A stretch of 35,338 nucleotides of DNA, taken from the IMG/VR virus record IMGVR_UViG_3300023179_006657, positions 1 through 35,338 of that record; one strand, written 5' to 3'. Of the stretch, positions 2,122 through 35,338 are shown piece after piece. Below the pieces are notes generated by a model, which was not told the DNA's origin, ran no database searches, and worked only from the letters and a program-made list of their open reading frames with translations. The DNA comes from a virus. Each line of letters starts with the position of its first letter. Position 1 is the stretch's first letter. The translations under genes and the position numbers were made by a program.

Positions 2122-4773
2122 ATGAAATTGGCAGATAAGACGGTTGAAGTTCATTCAAGAGGGGTCGCGTCATCAAATCAATTTACTATTCAACAAAGTT
2201 CTAAAATGTTTAAATTATTGTCTGATTCTTTATATTCGGACAAGGTTCAAGCAGTCATTAGAGAATTGAGTTGTAATGCTTACGATAGTCATATTGCATC
2301 TAATAACAAAAATCTTTTTAAAGTAACCCTACCTACTCAGGCCAATCCTAATTTTATTGTGCGTGATTACGGCACAGGGTTGAGTCAGGAAGATATGGAG
2401 AATCTGTATACAACATACGGAGCCAGCAATAAGAATGACAGTAATGATTTTGTTGGTTGTCTTGGTCTTGGTAGTAAAAGTCCTTTTGCTTATACCAAGA
2501 GTTTTTCGACTACTTCATACTATAAAAGCAAATCTTATACATATATTGCGGCCATGGATGAGGAAGGTGTACCTAGTCTAAATTTGATTAGTGTTAAGGA
2601 TACTAATGAGCCTAACGGTCTTGAAATTAAGTTTGCTGTTAAGCAACATGACTTTAATGAATTTAGCACTAAGGCCAAACGGGTTTTCCACTATTTCCGA
2701 CTCAAGCCTATTATTGAGGGTGGTGTTTGTGTTACTCTTAATGATAATACTTATTCTAACCACAATGTTGTGATTGAAGGTAAGGGCTGGAAGATCGGTA
2801 GAGTTAGTAGTGATTGGACTAAATATCCTAGTCAGCATAATAGTCCGGGTAGTGGCGTGGTTGCTATCATGGGTAATATTGCATACCCTGTTGATGCTAG
2901 TAAAATTGTTGGAGAAGATCGACCAGATCAGCCAGATCATATTCAGGCATGGAATAGGGCTTTTAGAAAGGCTGACGTTGATAACTGGAAGAATCTTGTA
3001 CGAGAAATCCTTAATCAAGGTCTTTATCTTGAGATCAATTTTAATATTGGAGAACTAGAGATAGATATTAGTCGAGAAGGATTGCAGTATACTAAGCAAG
3101 TAATCAACGCTCTGCGTGACAGAACTCAAGACATTTATCTTCAACTCAAGGAAGATATGACCAATAAACTTGCTGGTGCTAAGAGTCTGGTTGAAGCATA
3201 TCAAACCTACTATAATTTGAGTGATATTGCTGGTGGCTGGACTGCTGGTGCGTCTTGGACTGATTCTAATGGCAAGGTACATGATCTACAGAGCGGCTCA
3301 GACCTTGAGTATAAGTTTAAGAAAAGCAAGCAGTTGTATGTTTTTAACTTTAGAACCGCTGGCTATCGTAGTCGCCGCATGATTTATTTGACAGATAAAG
3401 TCCATTATGAGACTCTTGGTAGCAAGTCATACGGATACTATGGTTCTGCTAAGTCCGGTAAGTTGGTATTTTTCCGATGTGATCTTAAAGGTGCGGAAAC
3501 CGCCAAGAAGATTGTAACTAGGTATTGTAATCAAAATGATTGCTATGCTTATCTGATGGTAGATAGTGATACTCCAGAAGATTCAACCACGGGTTTTGAT
3601 GATATTATCAGAGATATTGGCGGAGAATCTAATATTGTGTTAGTGTCTGAACATAAGTCATTGATTGCTAATACTAATCGTAATAAGAGAACCCGTGATG
3701 CTTTGGGTTCTGTTAGTCGTGATAGTATCTTTTTGATTCATGGAGACATGGATAGTGCAGAAGATATTAAGAGTGAGAATCTTATGAATGATGCTGGTTA
3801 TCTACAAGAGATAACAGATCAGTCAGAAAGAGATAGCGTTTTGGATCAAGAGTCTATTGTGTACATTCCTATTCTGCGATATGCTAGTGTTGGGGATTGT
3901 CCTAGTATCGAAAGCATTAAACAAATGATTGCCGATAAAGATTGTGCTGATCTTGTCAAGAAGTTGTTTGGAGATACAAAGATTTTTGCTATTAAAGACA
4001 GTTATGCTAAGAAACTCATCAAGGATGGATATAATCTAGTTAGTTTCAATGACTTTTTTAAGAAAAGTGTGGCCGAAGTCTATGACAAAGAATTTAAAGG
4101 TTTGTCGGCATATAATGGTTTGATAGAGTATGCTCAAAATGAATATGGTAAACAAGAGAAAAATGATAATAACTATTATTATAATTCGTATTCAATTGAC
4201 AAGAATTTCTTGTGGCATATCTTGAATATGTTTGGGTTGGATTATGGTAAGTATATTAATGATCAAACTATTATTGATCTTGTGGACAAGTGTATGATTA
4301 TGGAATTTTTTGCTGTAACTATTAGTAAGAACACATTTGATCTTATTAAATTTAAGCAGGTAGACTATTTTGCTCATATTACTAAGATACTGCATGGTAT
4401 AGATATCAATGGTATTAACAGTAAGGATATTCGATCTGCTAATATAGCTTATAATAGGTTGTCATACTGGATTACTAAGTTGTATCCGGGGAACAATGAT
4501 ATGCTTAAAACTATTAAGAGCGACGACTCATTGCAGAATAAGTTGTCAAATGTCAATGACCTCCGAAAACAAATTAAAGAGAGTCTTGACAAACAGCCGA
4601 TGCTCAAGTATATTGTGTGTAGCAGCGACAAAGGCAATTTGCGTGAACTAAAAGCAGAAAATCCTTTGAGTGCGTTGAATGATGGTGGTTATTATCGCAG
4701 AAATGGTGGTTGGTCAGCAAAACTGGATGATGTTGAATCATTCAGAAAAGCAGTGAGTGATTCAATTAAGTAA
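2122..4773 (+). CDS. rIIA: rIIA-like protein with GHKL ATPase domain
   Basis: 883 residues, longer than T4 RIIA (725). The N-terminal GHKL ATPase fold is clear: VIRELSCNAYDSH (E48, N52; N-box), DYGTG (82-86; G1 box) and GLGSKSPFAY (115-124; G2 box). The remaining roughly 700 residues are less recognisable, as is usual for this family. In T4, RIIA and RIIB act at the host membrane and protect infected cells from lambda Rex exclusion and early lysis. The gene is followed after 23 bases by rIIB. It has its own strong promoter and a good ribosome binding site (GGAGA, 8 bases before ATG). Its base composition is visibly less A/T-extreme than the glycan region. Confidence 0.92.
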   Translation: MKLADKTVEVHSRGVASSNQFTIQQSSKMFKLLSDSLYSDKVQAVIRELSCNAYDSHIASNNKNLFKVTLPTQANPNFIVRDYGTGLSQEDMENLYTTYGASNKNDSNDFVGCLGLGSKSPFAYTKSFSTTSYYKSKSYTYIAAMDEEGVPSLNLISVKDTNEPNGLEIKFAVKQHDFNEFSTKAKRVFHYFRLKPIIEGGVCVTLNDNTYSNHNVVIEGKGWKIGRVSSDWTKYPSQHNSPGSGVVAIMGNIAYPVDASKIVGEDRPDQPDHIQAWNRAFRKADVDNWKNLVREILNQGLYLEINFNIGELEIDISREGLQYTKQVINALRDRTQDIYLQLKEDMTNKLAGAKSLVEAYQTYYNLSDIAGGWTAGASWTDSNGKVHDLQSGSDLEYKFKKSKQLYVFNFRTAGYRSRRMIYLTDKVHYETLGSKSYGYYGSAKSGKLVFFRCDLKGAETAKKIVTRYCNQNDCYAYLMVDSDTPEDSTTGFDDIIRDIGGESNIVLVSEHKSLIANTNRNKRTRDALGSVSRDSIFLIHGDMDSAEDIKSENLMNDAGYLQEITDQSERDSVLDQESIVYIPILRYASVGDCPSIESIKQMIADKDCADLVKKLFGDTKIFAIKDSYAKKLIKDGYNLVSFNDFFKKSVAEVYDKEFKGLSAYNGLIEYAQNEYGKQEKNDNNYYYNSYSIDKNFLWHILNMFGLDYGKYINDQTIIDLVDKCMIMEFFAVTISKNTFDLIKFKQVDYFAHITKILHGIDINGINSKDIRSANIAYNRLSYWITKLYPGNNDMLKTIKSDDSLQNKLSNVNDLRKQIKESLDKQPMLKYIVCSSDKGNLRELKAENPLSALNDGGYYRRNGGWSAKLDDVESFRKAVSDSIK

Positions 4774-4796
4774 ACTAATTTCACAGGAGATGTAAA

Positions 4797-5654
4797 ATGA
4801 GTGTTCCTTTTATGTGGGTTGATGGTAATCTGACGGTTATCTTGCAGAATAAGGCTTATCAAGTTCTGCCAGATCATCTTAACTATAGACAAATTATGGA
4901 TAGTCTCCATAATGCTAGTGAGGATGAGTTGCTTGAATTAGTTGATATTGAAAAGGCTGTTCAGTCTTTTGGTCAGGGTCTTATCGAGATTAAGAATGGT
5001 AAGGTTTACTATGATGGCGATGAAGTTCATGGTGCTATCAGTAAGCGTATTCTTGAATTTATGAGTAAGGGTCTGCCTTTCCAGCCTCTTGTTAATTTCT
5101 TGGAAAACCTTATGGAAAATCCAAGTATGCAGAGTCAGAAAGAACTATATGATTTTCTTGAGCATCAATATTTACCCGTGACAGAAGATGGGTGCTTTTT
5201 GGCCTACAAGGCTGTTCGTGGAGACTATATGGACAAATATGCCGGGAAGTTTCGCAACAAGGTTGGCGATGTTTGCGAAATGACACGAGCAAAAGTTGAT
5301 GATGATCGTGGGCGTGGATGTTCTAATGGGCTTCATGCTGGAGCATTGAACTATGTTGCCGGTTACGGTAGTGTAGATGCTGGTGATAAGATCGTTATTG
5401 TTAAGATCAATCCGAAAGATGTGGTCAGTGTTCCTAATGATTGTAATTGTGAGAAACTTCGCACTTGTCGATATGAAGTAGTGGGTGAGTACCAGGGTGA
5501 ACTTCTTAAGCCTCTTTATAAGAGTGAGTTTGATGAGGACTCCTACTATGATGAGGAAGAAGAACTTTACAGTGAGTATGATGATGCCTATTGGAATCAA
5601 TATGACACTGACGAAGATGAAGATGATGACGAGGATTATAACGACTATAACTAG
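4797..5654 (+). CDS. rIIB: rIIB-like protein
   Basis: 285 residues. The central segment carries the family's conserved stretch: ISKRILEFMSKGLPFQPL, then NLMENPSMQSQKELYDFLE, then LPVTEDGCFLAYKAV, with CSNGLHAG further on. A hypervariable tail of about 50 residues is almost all Asp, Glu, Tyr and Asn. T4 RIIB is 312 residues and works with RIIA; the gene order here is the same. The ribosome binding site AGGAG is 8 bases before ATG. The gene ends in TAG. Regulation is probably from the promoter upstream of rIIA, as no separate promoter is visible in the 23-base gap. Confidence 0.9.
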   Translation: MSVPFMWVDGNLTVILQNKAYQVLPDHLNYRQIMDSLHNASEDELLELVDIEKAVQSFGQGLIEIKNGKVYYDGDEVHGAISKRILEFMSKGLPFQPLVNFLENLMENPSMQSQKELYDFLEHQYLPVTEDGCFLAYKAVRGDYMDKYAGKFRNKVGDVCEMTRAKVDDDRGRGCSNGLHAGALNYVAGYGSVDAGDKIVIVKINPKDVVSVPNDCNCEKLRTCRYEVVGEYQGELLKPLYKSEFDEDSYYDEEEELYSEYDDAYWNQYDTDEDEDDDEDYNDYN

Positions 5655-7664: not shown

Positions 7665-8090
7665 ATGTCAAAATATGAAATTCTAGATTTAGAGGAATTC
7701 ACCCAAAATGCTAGAAAATTAGTTTTCGGGGCTTTTGGAAAAGCAAATAAAGAAACACAAGATGAATTTACCGAAATAGTAAATAAATTATCTCCAGAAG
7801 AAGAACAAGAGATGAATGAAACATTAACTCAACAAGAATCACTATTAATAGTTGAATCTTTTATTCATAAACAAACAAACAAGAACACAAAAGAAACCAG
7901 ATTTACCATAAATGAAAAAACTTTTACACAAATGATAGAAGCACTAAATGCTAGATTAGTAAGTAATATATTGTCTAATTTAACCAAAAAAGGTTTGATA
8001 GAATCTGCTTATGATGATGAACTAAATGATTTTGTATTTTGGTGCTCAGAAGATGAAAACAAAAATAATAAAAAACCAAAAACCAATTAG
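7665..8090 (+). CDS. hypothetical helical protein
   Basis: 141 residues, charged and probably helical throughout, with a Lys/Asn-rich tail (ENKNNKKPKTN). A segment around residues 90-117 (EALNARLVSNILSNLTKKGLIES) has the feel of a winged-helix C-terminal helix, but there is no secure match. It overlaps the following zinc-ribbon gene by 38 bases, so it belongs to the same transcription unit as the RuvB helicase. No catalytic residues are evident. Function not recognised. Confidence 0.55.
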   Translation: MSKYEILDLEEFTQNARKLVFGAFGKANKETQDEFTEIVNKLSPEEEQEMNETLTQQESLLIVESFIHKQTNKNTKETRFTINEKTFTQMIEALNARLVSNILSNLTKKGLIESAYDDELNDFVFWCSEDENKNNKKPKTN

Positions 8091-8448
8091 TTTAGATGTT
8101 TCTCTAAAATATGAATGTCCAGAATGTAGAAATAGTCACTATCTCTTTTTAAGAGAGGCGCAAACTAAAAATTTTAAAATAGTCTGTGAATGTGGTTTGG
8201 TTTTTAAGCCTAAATTGATAGATAGTGTTAAATTAAAATACTCAAAGAAAAGCAGAAAAAAAACCATAGATCCTACAAACAATACTAATAATAGTTTTAT
8301 CAAACAAGCAATTCCATATATAATTAATCTTGGATTCACAGAACAAGAAGCTATGGATATGCTTACCAAAGCACATGCTAAACATCCCACAGACGATATT
8401 TCACTTTTGATTAAAAATACCTTATTGGAGTTAAGAAATAATGGCTAA
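8053..8448 (+). CDS. zinc-ribbon protein with RuvA domain-III-like C-terminus
   Basis: 131 residues. An N-terminal zinc ribbon has CPEC (C22, C25) and CECG (C45, C47). After a basic linker (60-80), residues 82-130 read IPYIINLGFTEQEAMDML..., then DISLLIKNTLLELRNN. This matches the three-helix domain III of RuvA, whose pattern is ALGY..QEA.....-LIREAL. In bacteria that domain binds and regulates RuvB. The next gene, overlapping by 8 bases, is RuvB-like, which strongly supports a partner role. The RuvA OB-fold and HhH domains that grip the junction are absent; the zinc ribbon may replace them. I start at ATG 8053; an upstream in-frame start would extend further into the previous gene. Confidence 0.72.
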   Translation: MKTKIIKNQKPISLDVSLKYECPECRNSHYLFLREAQTKNFKIVCECGLVFKPKLIDSVKLKYSKKSRKKTIDPTNNTNNSFIKQAIPYIINLGFTEQEAMDMLTKAHAKHPTDDISLLIKNTLLELRNNG

Positions 8449-9358
8449 TCATCTTAGACCTTCTAGTTTTGATGGAATTATTGGACAATCATCTGTTATT
8501 GATAGGCTAAAGATTATGATTCACGGATGCAATGAATCATCAGGTGTTATGCCTCATGTATTAATTGATGGTCCTCCCGGACTCGGCAAAACAACTATTG
8601 TTCAGGCAATGTCTAATGAACTAAATGTTAATTTATATACTATTAATGCCGCTAATATTCGTAGTATCAAGAATCTATTACCTTATCTTATGGGAATAGC
8701 ACCAAGATCAATCCTATTTATTGATGAGATCCACAGACTTCCTAAAATTGTGGAAGAATTTCTATATCCCGTGATGGAAGATTTTACCATTAATATTACA
8801 GTCAAAGGTGAAGATGATAAAGATCGACCGGAAACCATCGATCTGCCACAATTCACCGTTGCTGGTGCTACTACTAGTGGTGGTAGTTTAAGTCAGCCAT
8901 TTTATGATAGATTTACAATTAAAGAACATTTGTCATATTATAATATCGATGAGTTAGCTAAACTAGCAAGGTTGAATGCAAATAAGCTCGGACTAATGAT
9001 TGAAGACGACCATTTGATCGAAATTGCTAAAAGAAGCAAGGGTACTCCTCGTATTCTTAATGCTAGATTAAATTGGTATAAAAATTATGCTTCTTTCTAT
9101 AAGGATAGGACAGTAGATATAAATGAGGTTTTTACTAATCAGGGTATAGATAGTGATGGTTTAGACTCTTATGATAGGCTCTATTTAGACGCTTTAAAAA
9201 AGTCTAGGGGTCAGCCACTAGGTTTAAAAAGCATCTCTGCAATGACAGGGATCGCTGTCGATACGATAGAAAACAGTGTCGAGCCTTTTCTAGTGCGTAT
9301 GGGGTATGTAGTAAGAACACAAAAGGGAAGAGTCATAGGTAATAAACAAAATGAATGA
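8441..9358 (+). CDS. ruvB: RuvB-like Holliday junction branch-migration helicase
   Basis: 305 residues, slightly shorter than bacterial RuvB (about 335-345). AAA+ features in order: Walker A GPPGLGKTT (44-52), Walker B LFIDEIHRL (92-100), sensor-1 region TVAGATTSGG (139-148), arginine finger in YDRF (R157) and sensor-2 GTPRILNAR (191-199). The C-terminal winged helix (about 230-300) ends with the family pattern EPFLVRMGYVVRTQKGR. It probably drives branch migration or fork remodelling during phage recombination-dependent replication. Clamp loaders are a related alternative, but the winged-helix end and sensor-1 TTS favour RuvB. Translationally coupled to the zinc-ribbon partner upstream and to a membrane protein downstream. 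Confidence 0.93.
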   Translation: MANHLRPSSFDGIIGQSSVIDRLKIMIHGCNESSGVMPHVLIDGPPGLGKTTIVQAMSNELNVNLYTINAANIRSIKNLLPYLMGIAPRSILFIDEIHRLPKIVEEFLYPVMEDFTINITVKGEDDKDRPETIDLPQFTVAGATTSGGSLSQPFYDRFTIKEHLSYYNIDELAKLARLNANKLGLMIEDDHLIEIAKRSKGTPRILNARLNWYKNYASFYKDRTVDINEVFTNQGIDSDGLDSYDRLYLDALKKSRGQPLGLKSISAMTGIAVDTIENSVEPFLVRMGYVVRTQKGRVIGNKQNE

Positions 9359-9677
9359 ATCACTATTAATATCTATTAATTTACCAACACTATTCCTATT
9401 AATTATCACGCTCCTAGCAATAGGGGCGTGTTTTTTTTTAATAGGCTATATTCGTGGCTCTGCAAACCATAATGGTGTATACAGTATTAATAAAAAATCA
9501 TCAAATTCAATAGAAAAGATGCCTAAAACTCATATATCTATTGATGAAACTAAAATAGTAACAAAAATTAATACTGATAATTTGGAAAAAAAATACGATC
9601 ATTTGGGAGAAATCAAACATAGTCAAGAGGATATCTCGTCCTCTGTGAATAAGCTAAAAGCTCTTAAAGGAGAATAA
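9351..9677 (+). CDS. single-pass membrane protein upstream of the actin-like ATPase
   Basis: 108 residues. One strong hydrophobic helix lies at about 10-34 (LPTLFLLIITLLAIGACFFLI), followed by an Arg-containing stretch (YIRGS) and a soluble, charged C-terminal domain of about 70 residues, so the C-terminus is probably cytoplasmic. The start overlaps the RuvB stop (ATGAATGA) and the stop is 2 bases before the actin-like ATG. This tight placement suggests it could anchor the filament protein to the membrane, which is inference. Family not recognised. Confidence 0.6.
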   Translation: MNESLLISINLPTLFLLIITLLAIGACFFLIGYIRGSANHNGVYSINKKSSNSIEKMPKTHISIDETKIVTKINTDNLEKKYDHLGEIKHSQEDISSSVNKLKALKGE

Positions 9678-9679
9678 TC

Positions 9680-10678
9680 ATGATAGGCTTGGATGTCGGA
9701 ACTAGTTTTATTGTTAAGGCCCAAGAAACAAATAATCAAATAGTATATACTGAATTTAGAGATGCTTTTTATATAATTAAACCGTCTACTCCAGTCTCCG
9801 CTAAAATGATAGAAAAGGGCTTATCTGGAAAAACATTCATTAAAGATAGTGATGGGTCTTATATACTTTTAGGTAAAGACGCTATAGAAAAAGCAATAGA
9901 AAGAAATGATAATGCTAAGAGACCAATGAAAAAAGGAGTTATATCCTCCCAAGAAAAAGAAGCTAGAAAAATATTATCATTTATTCTTAAAGAAGTAGTT
10001 GGTCAATCTAAAGAATCTAATACTAAATTAGTATATTGCGTACCAGCACAACCAGTAGATATTGAAGATGATGATTTTGATATTGGCTATCATGAAGATG
10101 TTATTTCTTCTATACTAAAAGAGTGTGGATATCTTCCAAAAGCCATCAATGAAGCAGAGGCTATTTGTTATGCAGAGCTTGAGAGTGACAGTTATACTGG
10201 TGTTGCTATAAGTGCTGGATCGGGTATGCAAAATATATGCGTTATGTTGAATGGAGAAGTTGTTGTTAAATTTAGCACAACAAAAAGTGGAGATTATATA
10301 GATAGAATGGTGGCATTGGCAACTGGAGAAAAAGACACCGTAGTTCAGGCAGAGAAGGAGTATGGGTCTTATGTTATAGGACAACCTAATAATAATCAAA
10401 TATTAGAAGCTATATCTTCTTATTATGAAAGATTAATAGATTATACTACTAAAAATTTAGCTGAAGCATTAAGCCAAAGTAAATCTTTGCCAAAATTTAA
10501 AGAACCATTAACTGTCGTGGTCGCAGGAGGTACATCTTTAGCAAAAGGATACGTTGAAACTTTCGAGCAAAAATTAAAAGAGAATAATTTTCCACTACCA
10601 ATCAAAGTAGTCAGACACGCATCAGATCCCCTTCATTCTGTTGCTAAAGGTTGTCTGATAGCCTCTCAGGTTTTATAG
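9680..10678 (+). CDS. actin/ParM/MreB-superfamily ATPase
   Basis: 332 residues. The three actin-fold signature loops are present: phosphate-1 GLDVGTSF (3-10), phosphate-2 VAISAGSGMQNICVML (175-190) and adenosine VVAGGTSLAKG (290-300). The NEAEA segment (157-161) corresponds to the connect region. The length fits MreB/ParM-like proteins. Family members polymerise with ATP to move or position DNA, or shape cells. In phages such proteins could centre or segregate phage DNA. It has an excellent ribosome binding site (AAAGGAG). Ends in TAG with the next start overlapping (TAGTG). A non-polymerising HSP70-like ATPase is possible but less likely at this length. Confidence 0.85.
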   Translation: MIGLDVGTSFIVKAQETNNQIVYTEFRDAFYIIKPSTPVSAKMIEKGLSGKTFIKDSDGSYILLGKDAIEKAIERNDNAKRPMKKGVISSQEKEARKILSFILKEVVGQSKESNTKLVYCVPAQPVDIEDDDFDIGYHEDVISSILKECGYLPKAINEAEAICYAELESDSYTGVAISAGSGMQNICVMLNGEVVVKFSTTKSGDYIDRMVALATGEKDTVVQAEKEYGSYVIGQPNNNQILEAISSYYERLIDYTTKNLAEALSQSKSLPKFKEPLTVVVAGGTSLAKGYVETFEQKLKENNFPLPIKVVRHASDPLHSVAKGCLIASQVL

Positions 10679-11049
10679 TGTTTAATATACTTACTAGATC
10701 GTCCCATTGGTCATCATTAAGAAAACAGCATCTAATTTTACAAAACTGCTGCAAGGCTTGTGGATCTATAAAAAATCTAGAGGTTCATCATATTATTCCG
10801 GTCTCAATAGATAATTCTAAAGAATTAGAACCCACCAATCTCATTACATTATGTAAATCTTGTCATTTTGTTTTTGGGCATTTTATGGATTATCAAAGTT
10901 GGAATCCTAATGTTACGGAAGATAGTTTGGTGTATTATAATAAGATATTGAATAAACCCTATAAAATAAAAGGGCAAAATTATGATAAAAATCTTATTGG
11001 TCTTTTTCTTGATTTTGTTTGGCAACGATTGTTTTTCTGGTACTATTGA
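10678..11049 (+). CDS. HNH endonuclease
   Basis: 123 residues from a GTG that overlaps the stop of the actin-like gene (TAGTG). An in-frame TTG at 10651 would add nine residues inside the actin gene. The HNH core is clear: CKACG at about 32-36, then LEVHHIIPVS, then the Asn in PTNLITLCKSCH closing the second Cys pair. This is the compact HNH seen in many phage homing or nicking enzymes. The C-terminus (LFLDFVWQRLFFWYY) is oddly aromatic and overlaps the start of the protease gene by 68 bases, so the last residues may be a product of overlap rather than of the ancestral domain. Confidence 0.82.
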   Translation: MFNILTRSSHWSSLRKQHLILQNCCKACGSIKNLEVHHIIPVSIDNSKELEPTNLITLCKSCHFVFGHFMDYQSWNPNVTEDSLVYYNKILNKPYKIKGQNYDKNLIGLFLDFVWQRLFFWYY

Positions 11050-11740
11050 TCCTAATACTCCAGACTCTAAATATATAGAATACGGATCAAAATTTCCATA
11101 TGTAGGAGTAATTATAGGTCAACAACAAGATAATTCTCCTTTTTATGGGTCTTGTGTAGCCTATAAAGATAAAATTATTATCACTGCTGCTCATCTATTT
11201 GAAAACTATAAGGCTTCTATTGTTATTATAAATAATAAAAAAATTAATATTCATAAAGTAAGTATTCATGAAGATTTTCGTAATGATATTTTTGGTAAAT
11301 ACGATATTGCTGTGTGTTTATTAGATGATGTAATAGGTCTGGGCTGGTATCCTGAATTATATGATAAAGATAATGAGGATGGAGCTTTATGCTCTATGTC
11401 TGGTTTTGGATGTACTGGTACTTTTATTACAGGGGTGAATAAATATAAGATAGAAAGAAGAGCAGGATCTAATTTTATAGACTCTGCACAAGGTAGTTTA
11501 ATGCTATGTTCTCCCTCTGTTTCTGCTAATAAGACAGAATTAGAATTTTTAATAGCCCCAGGAGATAGCGGTGGTGGTCTTTTTATAGGAAACAAATTGG
11601 CTGGTATCCATTCTGGACTAATCGAAGATAAGGGATCACAAAAAACAGCTAAATATGGTGCAATCAGTGCTCATACTAGAGTTAGTGTATATAATAAATG
11701 GATTAAAGATAGTATTAATAATCTTACTATTCAAGAATAA
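10982..11740 (+). CDS. secreted trypsin-fold serine protease
   Basis: 252 residues. The N-terminus is a signal peptide (MIKILLVFFLILFG, likely cleaved near residue 18-20). The chymotrypsin-fold triad is intact: H71 in IITAAHLF, D108 in YDIAVCLL and S196 in APGDSGGGLF. The oxyanion Gly-Asp-Ser is normal. Such a protein would be exported to the periplasm or outside. Targets could be host surface proteins, competing phage factors or virion proteins. It sits directly before a subtilisin gene (2-base gap). A TTGGTGTAT motif at about 10929 lies upstream within the HNH gene. No zymogen propeptide is obvious beyond about 20 residues after the signal. Confidence 0.9.
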   Translation: MIKILLVFFLILFGNDCFSGTIDPNTPDSKYIEYGSKFPYVGVIIGQQQDNSPFYGSCVAYKDKIIITAAHLFENYKASIVIINNKKINIHKVSIHEDFRNDIFGKYDIAVCLLDDVIGLGWYPELYDKDNEDGALCSMSGFGCTGTFITGVNKYKIERRAGSNFIDSAQGSLMLCSPSVSANKTELEFLIAPGDSGGGLFIGNKLAGIHSGLIEDKGSQKTAKYGAISAHTRVSVYNKWIKDSINNLTIQE

Positions 11741-11742
11741 AT

Positions 11743-12678
11743 ATGTTTAAAAATCGCTCTAAAAGATCTGACAAGATAGGTCTACTTCCATATATTAGCG
11801 AACCTTTGTATGGATTATCTCCTAATGATCCTCAAATGATGGGATGGGAAATTGTTAAATTTAATATCCCTGAAGCATGGAAAAATAGCGAAGGAGAAGG
11901 AGTAGTTTGTGCTGTATTAGATACTGGTTGTGATTTAGATCATGATGATCTTAGATCTAATTTATTAGATGGTATTAATTTTATTAATAAAAATGAAAGT
12001 CCGTATGATCGAAATGGACATGGAACCCATGTTAGTTCTACAATAGCCGCATGTAATAATAATAAAGGCATGGTTGGAGTCTCCCCAAAAACAAAGATAG
12101 TGCCGGTCAAAGTATTATCGGATAACGGATCAGGCTCATCAGAGTCTATAGTTGATGGTATTTATTGGAGTGCAGATAACAGCAAAATTGATTTTATAAC
12201 TATGAGTTTAGGATCTCCATCTCCTCATCCAGAAATTGCAAAAGCTATAGACTATGCAGCACAAAAAGGTAAAATAATATTTTGTGCAGCTGGAAATAAT
12301 GGCCCATCATCAGATATAATGTATCCTGCTAAATATCCTGAAACTATTGCTATTGGTGCTATTGACGAAAACTTACAAAGAACCAATTTTAGTTGTAGCG
12401 GTGATAGTCTAGACTTTTTAGCACCAGGACATAATATTATGGGATGTGCTCCAAATAATAGTTATGCAAAAATGAGTGGGACTAGCATGAGCAATCCTTT
12501 TGCTGTTGGTATTGCTAGTTTGCTATTAAGTTATAATATAAAAAGAAAACTTTTTAAATTAAGTACTGCTCAAGATTATATTAATATTTTAAAAGATTAT
12601 GCCCAGACTTTGCATGATCCTAATTATAGTTCTAGTAAAAAATATCAAGGGTATGGTATACTATACCCTGTATTATGA
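11743..12678 (+). CDS. subtilisin-like (S8) serine protease
   Basis: 311 residues. The full subtilase triad is present: D60 in AVLDTG, H93 in NGHGTHVSS and S248 in SGTSMSNPFA, plus the oxyanion Asn175 in AAGNNGP. There is no visible signal peptide; the first 33 residues (PYISEPLYGLSPNDP) resemble the short N-terminal segment of mature subtilases rather than a propeptide. This implies cytoplasmic action or release on lysis, unless it is packaged in virions. Its stop overlaps the convergent methyltransferase gene tail by 6 bases. A pro-domain is missing, which is unusual for a secreted S8 enzyme but not for intracellular ones. Confidence 0.93.
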   Translation: MFKNRSKRSDKIGLLPYISEPLYGLSPNDPQMMGWEIVKFNIPEAWKNSEGEGVVCAVLDTGCDLDHDDLRSNLLDGINFINKNESPYDRNGHGTHVSSTIAACNNNKGMVGVSPKTKIVPVKVLSDNGSGSSESIVDGIYWSADNSKIDFITMSLGSPSPHPEIAKAIDYAAQKGKIIFCAAGNNGPSSDIMYPAKYPETIAIGAIDENLQRTNFSCSGDSLDFLAPGHNIMGCAPNNSYAKMSGTSMSNPFAVGIASLLLSYNIKRKLFKLSTAQDYINILKDYAQTLHDPNYSSSKKYQGYGILYPVL

Positions 12679-29413: not shown

Positions 29414-29944
29414 ATGAAAACTATAGAACAACTTTTAAAAGAGGAAACCATGAATTCTCAAGCTCAAGAAGTTACTGGATATACCACAGAAACAGTAATA
29501 GAACTACTAAAGAAGTCATTAAATATTCACTGGCAACAAACCACAGCTTTGAGTGCTCAAGCTGTTCATCTTGAAAGATGGGGCTATAAAAAATTAGCAG
29601 CAATAATTAAAGAAGATGCAGAAGAAGAGCATCAGCACGCTATGATAAATTTAGAAAGATTGGAGTTTTTTGATAGTGATTATCAACCACTAGTAGTTTC
29701 TCCACCAGCCTGGACAAGACATGATATGCTAGCTATGATACGTTATAATTTAGCGTCTGTAAAAGAGGCTAGCGAAGCTGAAAGAACCACAATACTAGCA
29801 GCACGAGCTGTTGGAGATGAACTAACAGCAAATATAATGATTCCATTGTTACAAGGCAGCGAGAACGGCATAAAACTATATGAGGGATATCTTAAACTAA
29901 TTGATCAAATGGGTTTAGATAATTTCTTAACATTACAAGTATAG
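29414..29944 (+). CDS. ferritin-like / bacterioferritin-like protein
   Basis: 176 residues, four-helix bundle layout. The second helix has EEEHQHA (70-76), a typical E-x-x-H ferroxidase ligand pair (E72, H75). The first-helix Glu equivalent is replaced (LNIHW), and the fourth helix has ELTAN where bacterioferritins have E-x-x-H, so the second metal site appears incomplete. It could store or buffer iron, protect DNA or be structural. A GAGG before an internal ATG at 29450 makes that an alternative start, giving a 164-residue protein. Confidence 0.75.
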   Translation: MKTIEQLLKEETMNSQAQEVTGYTTETVIELLKKSLNIHWQQTTALSAQAVHLERWGYKKLAAIIKEDAEEEHQHAMINLERLEFFDSDYQPLVVSPPAWTRHDMLAMIRYNLASVKEASEAERTTILAARAVGDELTANIMIPLLQGSENGIKLYEGYLKLIDQMGLDNFLTLQV

Positions 29945-29949
29945 CTTTA

Positions 29950-30591
29950 ATGAATCTTAATAAATATTTAAGAAATAAAGATTTACAAGATCTTAAATTT
30001 GATAGCGTATATACAGAACAGCCAATTTCGGATATTGTACAAATAAACTGGAAAAATATTTTAGATCCACCACCGTCAAATGATAGTACTTTAGCATACA
30101 AGGAGCTGGTTTTCGTTGCAAAGAAAACTTTGAATAGATCACAACGAGATGTTGAATTTGTTCACAAAATAGATCAAGATATAGACTCACAATTTATTGA
30201 TCTTTTAAAAGAATATAAGATAGAATATCCTACTAAAATTATAGACGAAATGTATGCTATAATAAAACCGATACTTATGAATGTTAAGAATCTATATAAT
30301 AGAGCTAGACCATCACAATTAGCCAAATTTTTTGGTATTGAAATAGATACTATTATTACAGATACTATTCATACGGCGTCATATCCTTCTGGACATACGG
30401 TGTATGCTAGTATGGTATCAAGTATTATTCAAGAAATGATTCCTTTGATACCTAAACAAAAACTAAATGATCTTGTGGACCAAACAGCCTTAGCCAGAAT
30501 TCTTCAAGGAGTACATTATCCATCCGATAATGCGGCTTCTATAAAGTTTACAAATATACTATTTAAACACCTTTATCCTAAATTAATTTAA
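29950..30591 (+). CDS. soluble PAP2-superfamily phosphatase
   Basis: 213 residues with the full PAP2 signature: K-x6-RP in KNLYNRARP (113-121), PSGH (146-149) and A-R-x5-H-x3-D in ARILQGVHYPSD (182-193). There are no membrane helices and no signal peptide, so unlike most PAP2 lipid phosphatases it is soluble, as in class A acid phosphatases or vanadium haloperoxidase-like proteins. The substrate is unknown: small phosphoesters, pyrophosphates or lipid-linked phosphates from glycan synthesis. It sits between the ferritin-like and late-type genes. Confidence 0.88.
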   Translation: MNLNKYLRNKDLQDLKFDSVYTEQPISDIVQINWKNILDPPPSNDSTLAYKELVFVAKKTLNRSQRDVEFVHKIDQDIDSQFIDLLKEYKIEYPTKIIDEMYAIIKPILMNVKNLYNRARPSQLAKFFGIEIDTIITDTIHTASYPSGHTVYASMVSSIIQEMIPLIPKQKLNDLVDQTALARILQGVHYPSDNAASIKFTNILFKHLYPKLI

Positions 30592-31126: not shown

Positions 31127-31696
31127 ATGGAAATTCAATACGAGAGCTTGTCTACATATATAATGCTATCTAAAAAAATCATTAATAGATTTGCGCCTAA
31201 GTTTATAGTTAAACAGATGTTGTGTGATGATGATGCTATAGGAGATGTAGCAGCAGCAATCATGAATGCTGATAAAAACTATGATCCAAACAGAATGGGA
31301 GCTTCTCAGCAAAAAAAGACCCTCTATTCTTATAGAAATCAATGTGGGTTGTGGGCCATTAAAACCTATGTTACAAAAAAATATAAAAATAAAAAATTAA
31401 ATAGTTTAGATTTTGCAATAGATAATGAGTTTAATTTATACTCTAGTGTGCCTGATACAAAAAATATAGATCCTTTGGATATTATTATTAATAATGAAGA
31501 AGATGATAATCTTATTAATGATGTGTCATCAATCCTAGAGTCCAATATGCTCAATGAAAAACAAAAAGATCAGATAAAAATGTATTATTTTGAAGATAAG
31601 AGTTTAGCAGAAATTGGAGAGGTTTATGGAGTAACACGAGAAGCAGTAAGACAAAATATTAAAAGGGCTCTGACAAATATTAAAAATTTAGTATAA
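31127..31696 (+). CDS. phage sigma factor (T4 gp55-type late sigma candidate)
   Basis: 189 residues, close to the 185 of T4 gp55. The region-2-like part is IGDVAAAIMNADKNYDP (about 39-55) then YSYRNQCGLWAIKTYV. Region 4 is a helix-turn-helix: LNEKQKDQIKMYYFEDKSLAE, then EVYGVTREAVRQNIKRA (164-180), the classical sigma70 region-4 recognition pattern. It would direct host polymerase to phage late promoters. It has an AAAGGA ribosome site 8 bases before ATG. Next gene starts in its stop (TAATG). Confidence 0.88.
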   Translation: MEIQYESLSTYIMLSKKIINRFAPKFIVKQMLCDDDAIGDVAAAIMNADKNYDPNRMGASQQKKTLYSYRNQCGLWAIKTYVTKKYKNKKLNSLDFAIDNEFNLYSSVPDTKNIDPLDIIINNEEDDNLINDVSSILESNMLNEKQKDQIKMYYFEDKSLAEIGEVYGVTREAVRQNIKRALTNIKNLV

Positions 31697-32206: not shown

Positions 32207-32638
32207 ATGCAAAATGACAATGTTATTATTTGGCAAAAATGGGTAGATCCTTTTGGTAGAGATGAAAATCCTGAACAGGAAGAATTTGGAAATTTTGTAG
32301 AGGATGATGCCGGAGAAGAGGAAGATCAAAAGGCCGAAAGTTTCTTAGCTGGACACTCTATAAAATATGGAGTAAAAGTTATAGCTACTCCTATGGGTGT
32401 TATTCCAGTTAATGATAATACTGCTAGCGGTAAATTATTTAACTTTTGGATGGGTCATACTAATTTTGATATTACTAAAAAAGTTGCTGACACCATAGAA
32501 AAAACAGAAGGGGTTGAAACTCTAGATATTTATACTAGATATAGATTTAGAATTAGTGTTGGCAAAGCTTTTGAAGACTCAGTGGTAATGAGAGAAATCA
32601 ATAAAAACGTATATAAGGAATTAAGATATGCCCATTAA
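32207..32638 (+). CDS. conserved phage protein, unknown function
   Basis: 143 residues. Opening IIWQKWVDPFGRDE, acidic linker (about 25-42), then VIATPMGVIPVND, FNFWMGHTNFDIT, and ETLDIYTRYRFRISVGKAF with DSVVMREI near the end. Similar sequences are familiar from the late regions of aquatic phages. It overlaps the ClpP-like gene by 11 bases. An AGGG site lies 9 bases before ATG. Possibly a structural or maturation-linked protein; no enzyme motif seen. Confidence 0.6.
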   Translation: MQNDNVIIWQKWVDPFGRDENPEQEEFGNFVEDDAGEEEDQKAESFLAGHSIKYGVKVIATPMGVIPVNDNTASGKLFNFWMGHTNFDITKKVADTIEKTEGVETLDIYTRYRFRISVGKAFEDSVVMREINKNVYKELRYAH

Positions 32639-33299
32639 TCATGATATGGGGTTATCCTCAATTCATTCATATAATATTGATCCTAAAAATAGAGAAATTT
32701 TTTTACATTCTTATTTATCAGATAATGAAGAAGAGGCAGGAGTTGATTATAGAAGCTCTGTGTTTTTTGAAAAGAATATAAGATATCTAAATTCTATTTC
32801 TAATGAACCTATACTTGTTCATATGCATTTGCCAGGTGGTGATTGGCAAGATTGTTTAGGCATGTATGATTCTATTATAGCTTCAAAAGCAAAAGTTATT
32901 ATATTAGCTTACGCTAAGGCTGAATCTTCTAGTAGTTTTTTATTGCAGGCCGCTGATCTTAGGATATTAATGCCTAATACCAATGTTATGATTCATTATG
33001 GTTCATTCAGTTTGGATGGAGAGCATAGCAAAGCTGCTGCTGCTGGTATTCAATGGAATGAAAGAGAATGCGAAAAGATGGTTGATGTATTTGCCGAAAG
33101 GTGTATGAATAGTAGCATATGTAAAGAAAAAAATTGGAAAAAAATGATGGCCAAAAAACATATAACATCTCAATTGGCTAATAAATGCGATTGGATTTTA
33201 ACAGCACAAGAGGCTGTTGATTATGGTTTTGCTGATGGTATATTAGGTAGTAAAAAATTTCCACACATAGATTATCTTAAAACATACATCAAAAAATAA
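32628..33299 (+). CDS. ClpP-like serine protease
   Basis: 223 residues. ClpP fold: HLPGGDWQDCLGMYDSI (68-84, oxyanion Gly-Gly), catalytic Ser in AKAESSSSF (S100), catalytic His in NVMIHYGSF (H123) and the Asp in CDWILTAQEAVDYG (D188), which aligns with ClpP's third triad residue. Phage ClpP-like enzymes often act as prohead proteases. Alternatively it could degrade host or phage regulators. No Clp ATPase gene is seen here. The gene follows a coupled start. Confidence 0.88.
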   Translation: MPINHDMGLSSIHSYNIDPKNREIFLHSYLSDNEEEAGVDYRSSVFFEKNIRYLNSISNEPILVHMHLPGGDWQDCLGMYDSIIASKAKVIILAYAKAESSSSFLLQAADLRILMPNTNVMIHYGSFSLDGEHSKAAAAGIQWNERECEKMVDVFAERCMNSSICKEKNWKKMMAKKHITSQLANKCDWILTAQEAVDYGFADGILGSKKFPHIDYLKTYIKK

Positions 33300-34661: not shown

Positions 34662-35338
34662 ATGATTGGGACACAACAAATATTACCATCAGAATGCAGA
34701 GATTCTTGTTGTTATTATGTTTGTGTAGAAAACTATAAAGAACAGAGTAGTTGTATTACTAATAATATAGTAATTAATTTTGAAGGTGGTCTTATACAAA
34801 ATTTTAATAATGATGAATATCAATTATTAATAGAAGGTAACTGTGTTGATCCTTCAGGTAATACAATAGATATTAGATCCTCTAAAAATGATTGTTATGG
34901 ATGTTCAATAACACCAATTATCAACAATCAGAATAATTGTGGTAATGATTTATTTGAAATTAAGATCCCAATAGCTGATCAACAAATTAAATGTTGTCCA
35001 GTAACAAATAAACCCACCCCCACCTCTACAAAAACGCCCACACCCACCCCCAATACTATTACCCCAACTAATAGCGTAACGCCAACAAATACTACGACTC
35101 CATCTATCACTCCAACGAATAGCGTAACACGAACTGTTACCCCAACCAACAGTGTTACTCCCTCAATCACCCCAACTAATAGTGTTACTCCGACAGTTAC
35201 TGCCACCAAAACTGTAACCCCATCAATTACTCCAACTAATAGTGTTACTCCGACAATTACTCCAACATTAACTCCTACAAACAGTGTTACTCCCTCAATC
35301 ACCCCAACTAACAGTGTTACTCCCTCAATCACCCCAAC
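34662..35338 (+). CDS. Cys-rich protein with Thr/Pro/Ser repeats (5' part; runs off the window)
   Basis: At least 225 residues, open at the right edge. Residues 1-117 contain eleven cysteines (e.g. [21 protein letters not shown]), suggesting disulfides or a metal site. From about residue 118 comes a low-complexity region built of variants of [11 protein letters not shown] and PTPT. Such repeats make long extended stalks in phage tail-fibre or spike proteins and are often O-glycosylated. The start ATG has AGGA seven bases upstream. The strand opposite has a long open frame, but that is an artefact of the repeat. Confidence 0.8.
35013..35338 (+). repeat. imperfect tandem repeat encoding [11 protein letters not shown]-type units
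   Basis: From the first CCCACC codons onward the DNA repeats variants of a 30-39 base unit containing CCAACTAATAGTGTTACTCC and related spellings, at least six times before the window ends. Unit borders are imprecise by eye. Repeats of this kind allow slippage or recombination, so the length may vary between isolates. Confidence 0.85.

Follow-up and report, generated by a model that had tools for sequence, protein, structure and literature searches.

In bacterial RuvAB, the core of RuvA holds the four-way junction and the tip of RuvA regulates the RuvB motor. Cryo-EM of the bacterial complex has shown that domain III alone contacts RuvB, serving as tether, nucleotide exchange factor and fulcrum, while the junction is held by the RuvA core (PMC9477746). 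On the motor side, domain III is bound by a RuvB hairpin, L135-L152 (PMC2628435; PMC9477746), and RuvA that carries L167A or L170A still binds junctions but no longer supports RuvB activity in vivo (PMC2628435). RuvB itself contacts DNA through wing arginines, as described in P. aeruginosa (PMC10071043). Phages are known to employ Ruv components of their own, yet phage RuvC, in the 224 jumbo phages of one survey, was reported without coupling to a RuvB-like ATPase (PMC7824862).

The locus that we describe here resembles the RuvC-type resolvases of jumbo phage groups 1 and 3 in that a bacterial Ruv component is in phage use; unlike in jumbo phages with RuvC but no RuvB, however, the component is RuvB, and RuvC is missing. 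It lies in a virus record of 35,338 bases (hereafter the window, that is, the whole stretch of DNA that was analysed), where a RuvB-family motor gene is preceded by the gene of a 131-aa protein for which we use the name ZA (Table 1). In our preferred reading, which we would give a probability of roughly two in three, ZA and the phage RuvB form a branch-migration or fork-remodelling motor, in which the partner keeps the motor-binding tip of RuvA and docks via a basic zinc ribbon.

Table 1. Features at and around the ZA-RuvB locus (positions in the window; domain roles are predictions)
Feature	Position	Strand	Description	Basis
141-aa gene directly upstream	7665..8090	+	overlaps ZA by 38 bases; present in all examined phage loci reaching that far	
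ZA gene	8053..8448	+	131 aa, ATG start; zinc ribbon and RuvA domain III; predicted RuvB partner	ORF, weak RuvA_C and Zn_Ribbon_TF matches, ruvA model, 80-member family
ZA N-terminal basic zinc-ribbon module, residues 1-63	8053..8241	+	putative ligands C22, C25, C45, C47	invariant Cys, charge, AlphaFold2
ZA flexible linker, residues 64-78	8242..8286	+	length varies across the family	family spacing, lower pLDDT in blocks 61-80
ZA RuvA domain III homologue, residues 79-130	8287..8442	+	predicted RuvB-binding domain	profile and structure matches
RuvB-family AAA+ motor	8441..9358	+	305 aa; first 8 bases shared with ZA	Pfam, PRK00080, PDB
RuvB hairpin segment	8789..8845	+	remodelled in the phage clade	alignments; hairpin strands predicted in relative L104
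108-aa gene	9351..9677	+	shares bases with the end of RuvB; N-terminus is hydrophobic; conserved after RuvB in many loci	

Like bacterial RuvAB (models TIGR00084 and TIGR00635/PRK00080), the locus combines a full RuvB motor with an adjacent partner gene whose predicted domain III sits behind a flexible linker; unlike bacterial RuvAB, the partner has a basic zinc ribbon in place of RuvA domains I (OB) and II (HhH). The original prediction had described a RuvB-like helicase overlapped by 8 bases by a preceding gene that bears a CxxC...CxC pattern and is devoid of the RuvA OB and HhH domains, and each of these points was borne out. The two genes do share 8 bases; the cysteine pattern and the helicase assignment are taken up below; and RuvA_N (domain I, OB) was found neither in ZA nor in any of 18 long related contigs (113-229 kb), while a profile of domains I and II (OB and HhH) had no match with E<2.8 in either the window or the fetched phage loci. 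RuvC was likewise found in 0 of the 18 contigs; these contigs are fragments or of uncertain completeness, so that such absences are not proof. With T4-type junction processing (UvsX, UvsW, endonuclease VII) the related phages share a RecA-family protein, present in 17 of the 18 contigs, and an endonuclease VII domain, present in 12, the two genes lying ~9-16 kb from RuvB where positions were compared. Unlike T4-type phages, they possess a RuvB motor, and neither a T4-type DNA polymerase B nor a separate gp44-like loader was detected in the 18 contigs.

The N-terminal half of ZA carries the difference from RuvA. C22, C25, C45 and C47, arranged in the window as C22-x2-C25 ... C45-x-C47, are invariant in all members of our alignment of 80 non-redundant ZA proteins, with spacings of C-x4-C-x19-C-x-C in 41 and C-x2-C-x19-C-x-C in 35 (together 76/80). 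The four putative ligands fall on two knuckles, as in a zinc ribbon, AlphaFold2 gives the module beta structure at a pLDDT of 86-98, and ZA presumably binds zinc. The distance from C47 to G94 ranges between 42 and 94 residues across the family, so the length of the linker is variable. TFIIB/TFIIE/S27e-type ribbons have in common with ZA a CxxC...C-x-C pattern over ~40 residues, but the C-x-C of the second knuckle and a family-specific conserved motif (K-P ... H-W ... K-N-x-K-x-V-C-x-C) distinguish ZA from them, and no family assignment passes its cut-off. Nor does the window ZA match any PHROG v4 family, and among the 80 members two match a single unnamed one.

What such a ribbon might read has to be weighed with the absence of the RuvA core in mind. 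One possibility, which we offer tentatively, is that RuvB is run here by a non-RuvA targeting module, the ribbon and not a junction-holding tetramer choosing the target; this would be a new RuvB machine, such as a branch migrator with a monomeric adaptor, a fork remodeller or a remodeller coupled to transcription, and domain III alone, on any anchor, would then be enough to run RuvB. We consider it doubtful, though worth retaining, that ZA binds RuvB via domain III while its ribbon targets a protein such as RNA polymerase, a resolvase or a replisome part, which would make the pair a transcription- or replication-coupled remodeller and not a branch-migration enzyme. The ribbon's sole Pfam match in the window ZA, a weak one, is to Zn_Ribbon_TF (TFIIB; E=0.0045), its fold neighbours in Foldseek are ribosomal S27e-type ribbons (probability 0.66), and TFIIE-type ribbons, with no role assigned, occur in jumbo phages (PMC7824862); moreover, with the tetrameric grip of RuvA gone, a four-way junction would have no obvious holder. 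Against a protein target, Zn_Ribbon_TF is matched at E<0.01 by only one of the 80 members, the net charge of the module (residues 1-63) is positive in 80/80 with a median of +7, which fits nucleic acid, and the RecA and endonuclease VII genes of the same genomes favour recombination. DNA thus seems the likelier target of the ribbon, charge being its sole link to DNA. We nevertheless keep a protein-targeting or fork-specific reading in play, because without the tetrameric core something else would have to provide rotation and guide the strands where four arms meet.

To judge from its domains and motifs, the motor is a genuine RuvB with the complete domain set. In Pfam, RuvB_N (154.6 bits, E=2.4e-45), AAA_lid_4 (39.6 bits) and the RuvB_C winged helix (66.6 bits) are all matched above cut-off and at full length; PRK00080 is matched at 303.7 bits, over its cut-off of 282, and TIGR00635 at 277.7, just under 299; and almost the entire protein aligns with solved RuvBs in the PDB (E=2.7e-63). 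The 87 non-redundant phage RuvBs show hardly any variation in Walker A and B, sensors 1 and 2, the arginine finger, the trans-acting E-D or the wing R-T-x-K-G-R. The phage RuvB may carry out branch migration. It is most unlikely, in our view, that the phage RuvB was repurposed as a sliding-clamp or helicase loader, with ZA as its small subunit, and is not a DNA-translocating motor. The clamp-loader profile phrog_168 (T4 gp44-like) does find one protein per contig in the 18 contigs, which is RuvB itself where compared, and none of these contigs, which reach 229 kb, yielded a DNA polymerase of family A or B, despite the presence of RecA and endonuclease VII. However, the phage protein conserves the lid, wing and DNA-contact residues typical of RuvB, a domain III partner is a feature of RuvB and not of clamp loaders, and the match of the window protein to the RuvB model (E=1e-90) is so far above that to phrog_168 (E=2e-18) that a clamp loader was rejected as its identity.

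The pairing of the two genes is widespread. Four scans of IMG/VR yielded loci that include many near-copies, with ZA directly before RuvB in 156 of 158; the two exceptions (L033 and L095) are cut by contig ends. Relatives of ZA are thus found at RuvB and not away from it, and a large group of uncultured phages has its own RuvB, nearly always beside ZA. De-duplication at 95% left 87 RuvBs, 73 with ZA and 14 without, and an overlap of exactly 8 nt is the commonest arrangement (33 of 72 de-duplicated pairs). In the ZA-less contigs, which reach 229 kb, no ZA was found elsewhere, and RuvB follows the 141-aa gene with no gap or a very small one. In a RuvB tree for which 29 Bacteroidota sequences served as outgroup, those of the phages form one clade with the ZA-less ones scattered through it; the presence of ZA requires 11 changes, at least 5 of them forced by starred branches. 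This pattern fits an ancestral ZA followed by repeated independent losses, as read from the sequences at hand, and since 14 of the 87 non-redundant RuvBs do without it, the ZA partner is not essential to the RuvB lineage. Among ~85,000 bacterial and archaeal genomes, ZA occurred in one contig only, from a Chitinophagia MAG, in the same phage gene order, and this contig makes for a weak host assignment. Phage reference records contained no ZA, and their RuvB matches were at most 41% identical; at least some of these look like host contigs. The 141-aa protein itself has weak matches to HTH, Abi_alpha and phrog_2232 families and may be the operon's third component. In L011, whose contig is also without ZA, this upstream gene is split across two reading frames (4084-4448), either by decay or by an assembly error.

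The C-terminal half of ZA had been predicted to match RuvA domain III over residues 82-130, and both profile and structure searches recovered that relationship. Single-protein scores are low: the window ZA reaches 18.7 bits against Pfam RuvA_C (E=0.0025; cut-off 24 bits) and 21.9 bits against the curated RuvA model TIGR00084 (cut-off 85 bits), with NCBIfam ruvA matched at E=1e-4 over residues 63-124, and among the 80 members RuvA_C is matched by 7 and ruvA by 13. A profile of the family, in contrast, when run against all PDB chains, scores best with RuvA domain III of 1ixs_A (E=1.4e-4), a co-crystal of RuvA and RuvB, followed by 1ixr, and of the best 9 matches 7 are RuvA chains. Aligned by HHalign with 15 Bacteroidota RuvAs (those with a usable ORF among 30 fetched RuvA loci, all Bacteroidota), the family scored a probability of 90.3% (E=1.5e-6) on RuvA residues 164-215, compared with 0.3% for the reversed alignment and no more than 1.5% in 100 column shuffles; the signal came from the domain III half (94.0%) and not from the zinc half (0.1%). 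In the reciprocal direction, a profile of cellular RuvA domain III run against 22,491 six-frame phage DNA pieces gave 63 matches, 62 of which, including the first 52, were ZA. AlphaFold2 places helices at 79-91, 97-110 and 116-130 (mean pLDDT 87.9), and the highest Foldseek probabilities for ZA are to RuvA (2ztd_A, 0.89, 1.6 A over 47 columns; 1ixs_A, 0.77, target TM 0.70), at E-values above 1 for a domain this small. The homology is therefore weak for a single protein and well above chance for the family, and on these comparisons ZA is best classed as a domain III homologue and not as a RuvA. That residues 79-130 form a generic three-helix domain of the UBA type with an origin separate from that of RuvA, its adjoining RuvB being an operon-order coincidence or an unrelated functional link, is scarcely credible: the fold is small, its key motif G-F/Y-x3-E-A is common to UBA-like domains generally, and the single-protein scores and Foldseek E-values are as modest as stated, but no UBA family was matched in Pfam at E<0.01 by any of the 80 members and no UBA chain came up in the PDB profile search, both of which return RuvA instead and led us to reject a generic UBA domain, while 62 of 63 reciprocal matches were ZA and its near-constant position before RuvB would be an extreme coincidence.

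I148 and I150 of E. coli RuvB are, we assume, RuvA contact residues. Unlike in bacterial RuvAB, the equivalent of I148 is Glu or Asp in 85 of the 87 phage RuvBs; the MAFFT alignment gapped the hairpin, and the I148 position was fixed by the conserved I-x-L/P motif, taken as an ungapped anchor. The equivalent of I150 is Ile in 85/87, and the Bacteroidota RuvBs inspected have A-R-S/T-V/I-x-I in this region. The hairpin is retained but 4 residues shorter in 64/87, and a presensor-1 beta-hairpin is predicted in relative L104. On the other side of the contact, I90 and L93 of the window ZA are the equivalents of RuvA L167 and L170; across the family the L167 equivalent is Leu in 71/80, whereas the L170 equivalent is Tyr in 68/80, where nearly all of the Bacteroidota RuvAs inspected have Leu. 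Both sides of the known RuvA-RuvB contact have changed, which we read as a probable co-adapted interface; we go no further because the ZA-less RuvBs carry the same hairpin. Decay of the hairpin in ZA-less lineages, expected had it served ZA only, was not observed, hairpins being alike in lineages with and without ZA. ZA probably binds RuvB, and if it does, the interface would be a re-tuned one. Covariation over 75 ZA-RuvB pairs (mutual information with average-product correction) showed no enrichment at the hairpin, whose columns account for 10-14% of the top pairs, against 9.5% expected. A fold of L104 in which the stop between ZA and RuvB was read through as Gly (AlphaFold2) had a pTM of 0.59 and a domain III pLDDT of 71-86; this model is consistent with an undocked domain III, although with a linker of only ~10 residues and a domain III depth of 4 rows it says little about the interface. 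The broader claim that ZA is a RuvA-like partner of RuvB is supported. The make-up of both proteins, the missing OB/HhH core and the near-obligate adjacency speak well for it on the side of identity; the 14 of 87 lineages without ZA and the remodelled hairpin qualify it and count against the motor that we favour, and branch migration or fork loading is its inferred function.

The branch-migration or fork-remodelling motor that we favour could work as follows. As an adaptor dedicated to the phage-encoded RuvB and as its regulator, ZA would dock on the RuvB large ATPase domain through its domain III, which sits on a flexible linker. By analogy with bacteria, the docked domain may recruit RuvB, stimulate nucleotide exchange and act as fulcrum. 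The basic zinc ribbon would replace the tetrameric OB/HhH core of RuvA and bring RuvB to its substrate, most likely DNA, and the RuvB hexamer would then pull duplex DNA. The pair would come into action after the phage RecA/UvsX-like recombinase and before the endonuclease VII-type resolvase, a motor working between strand exchange and resolution being the simplest account.

In the open-access literature we found neither a RuvA domain III joined to a different N-terminal module nor a phage RuvB with a dedicated partner described, in keeping with the original prediction that the complex is of a kind not known to be described. It is a variant of RuvAB and not a new category, because both of the interacting halves are recognisable Ruv parts. 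These phages appear to split the two jobs of RuvA, keeping the tip and exchanging the junction-holding core for a zinc ribbon, which suggests a new manner of directing RuvB to DNA. They may also offer a natural experiment on domain III as nucleotide-exchange factor and fulcrum (PMC9477746): does RuvB translocate usefully when domain III is carried on another anchor? For phage recombination, where RuvC had been reported without a RuvB-like ATPase, the locus adds RuvB itself.

Several other genes of the window deserve mention. Directly after the RuvB operon, 9680-10678 encodes an actin-like protein (Pfam Volactin, E=3e-61) with 63-76% identity in related phages; Volactin is an actin family that takes its name from a haloarchaeon. 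Adjoining rIIA (883 aa) and rIIB (285 aa) homologues occupy 2122-5654, and ~2,850 phage records matched the window rIIA, with identity below 60% and no match spanning 80% of its length. Trypsin-like and subtilisin-like protease genes adjoin at 10982-12678, and both are kept in relatives L010 and L011. Further along are a ferritin-like protein (29414-29944, E=2.5e-13), a PAP2-family phosphatase (29950-30591), a small sigma-70-type factor with region 4 (31127-31696) and a ClpP-like protease (32628-33299). An ORF that runs off the end of the window (34662-35336) contains a long Pro/Thr/Ser-rich tandem repeat and possibly encodes a surface or fibre protein.
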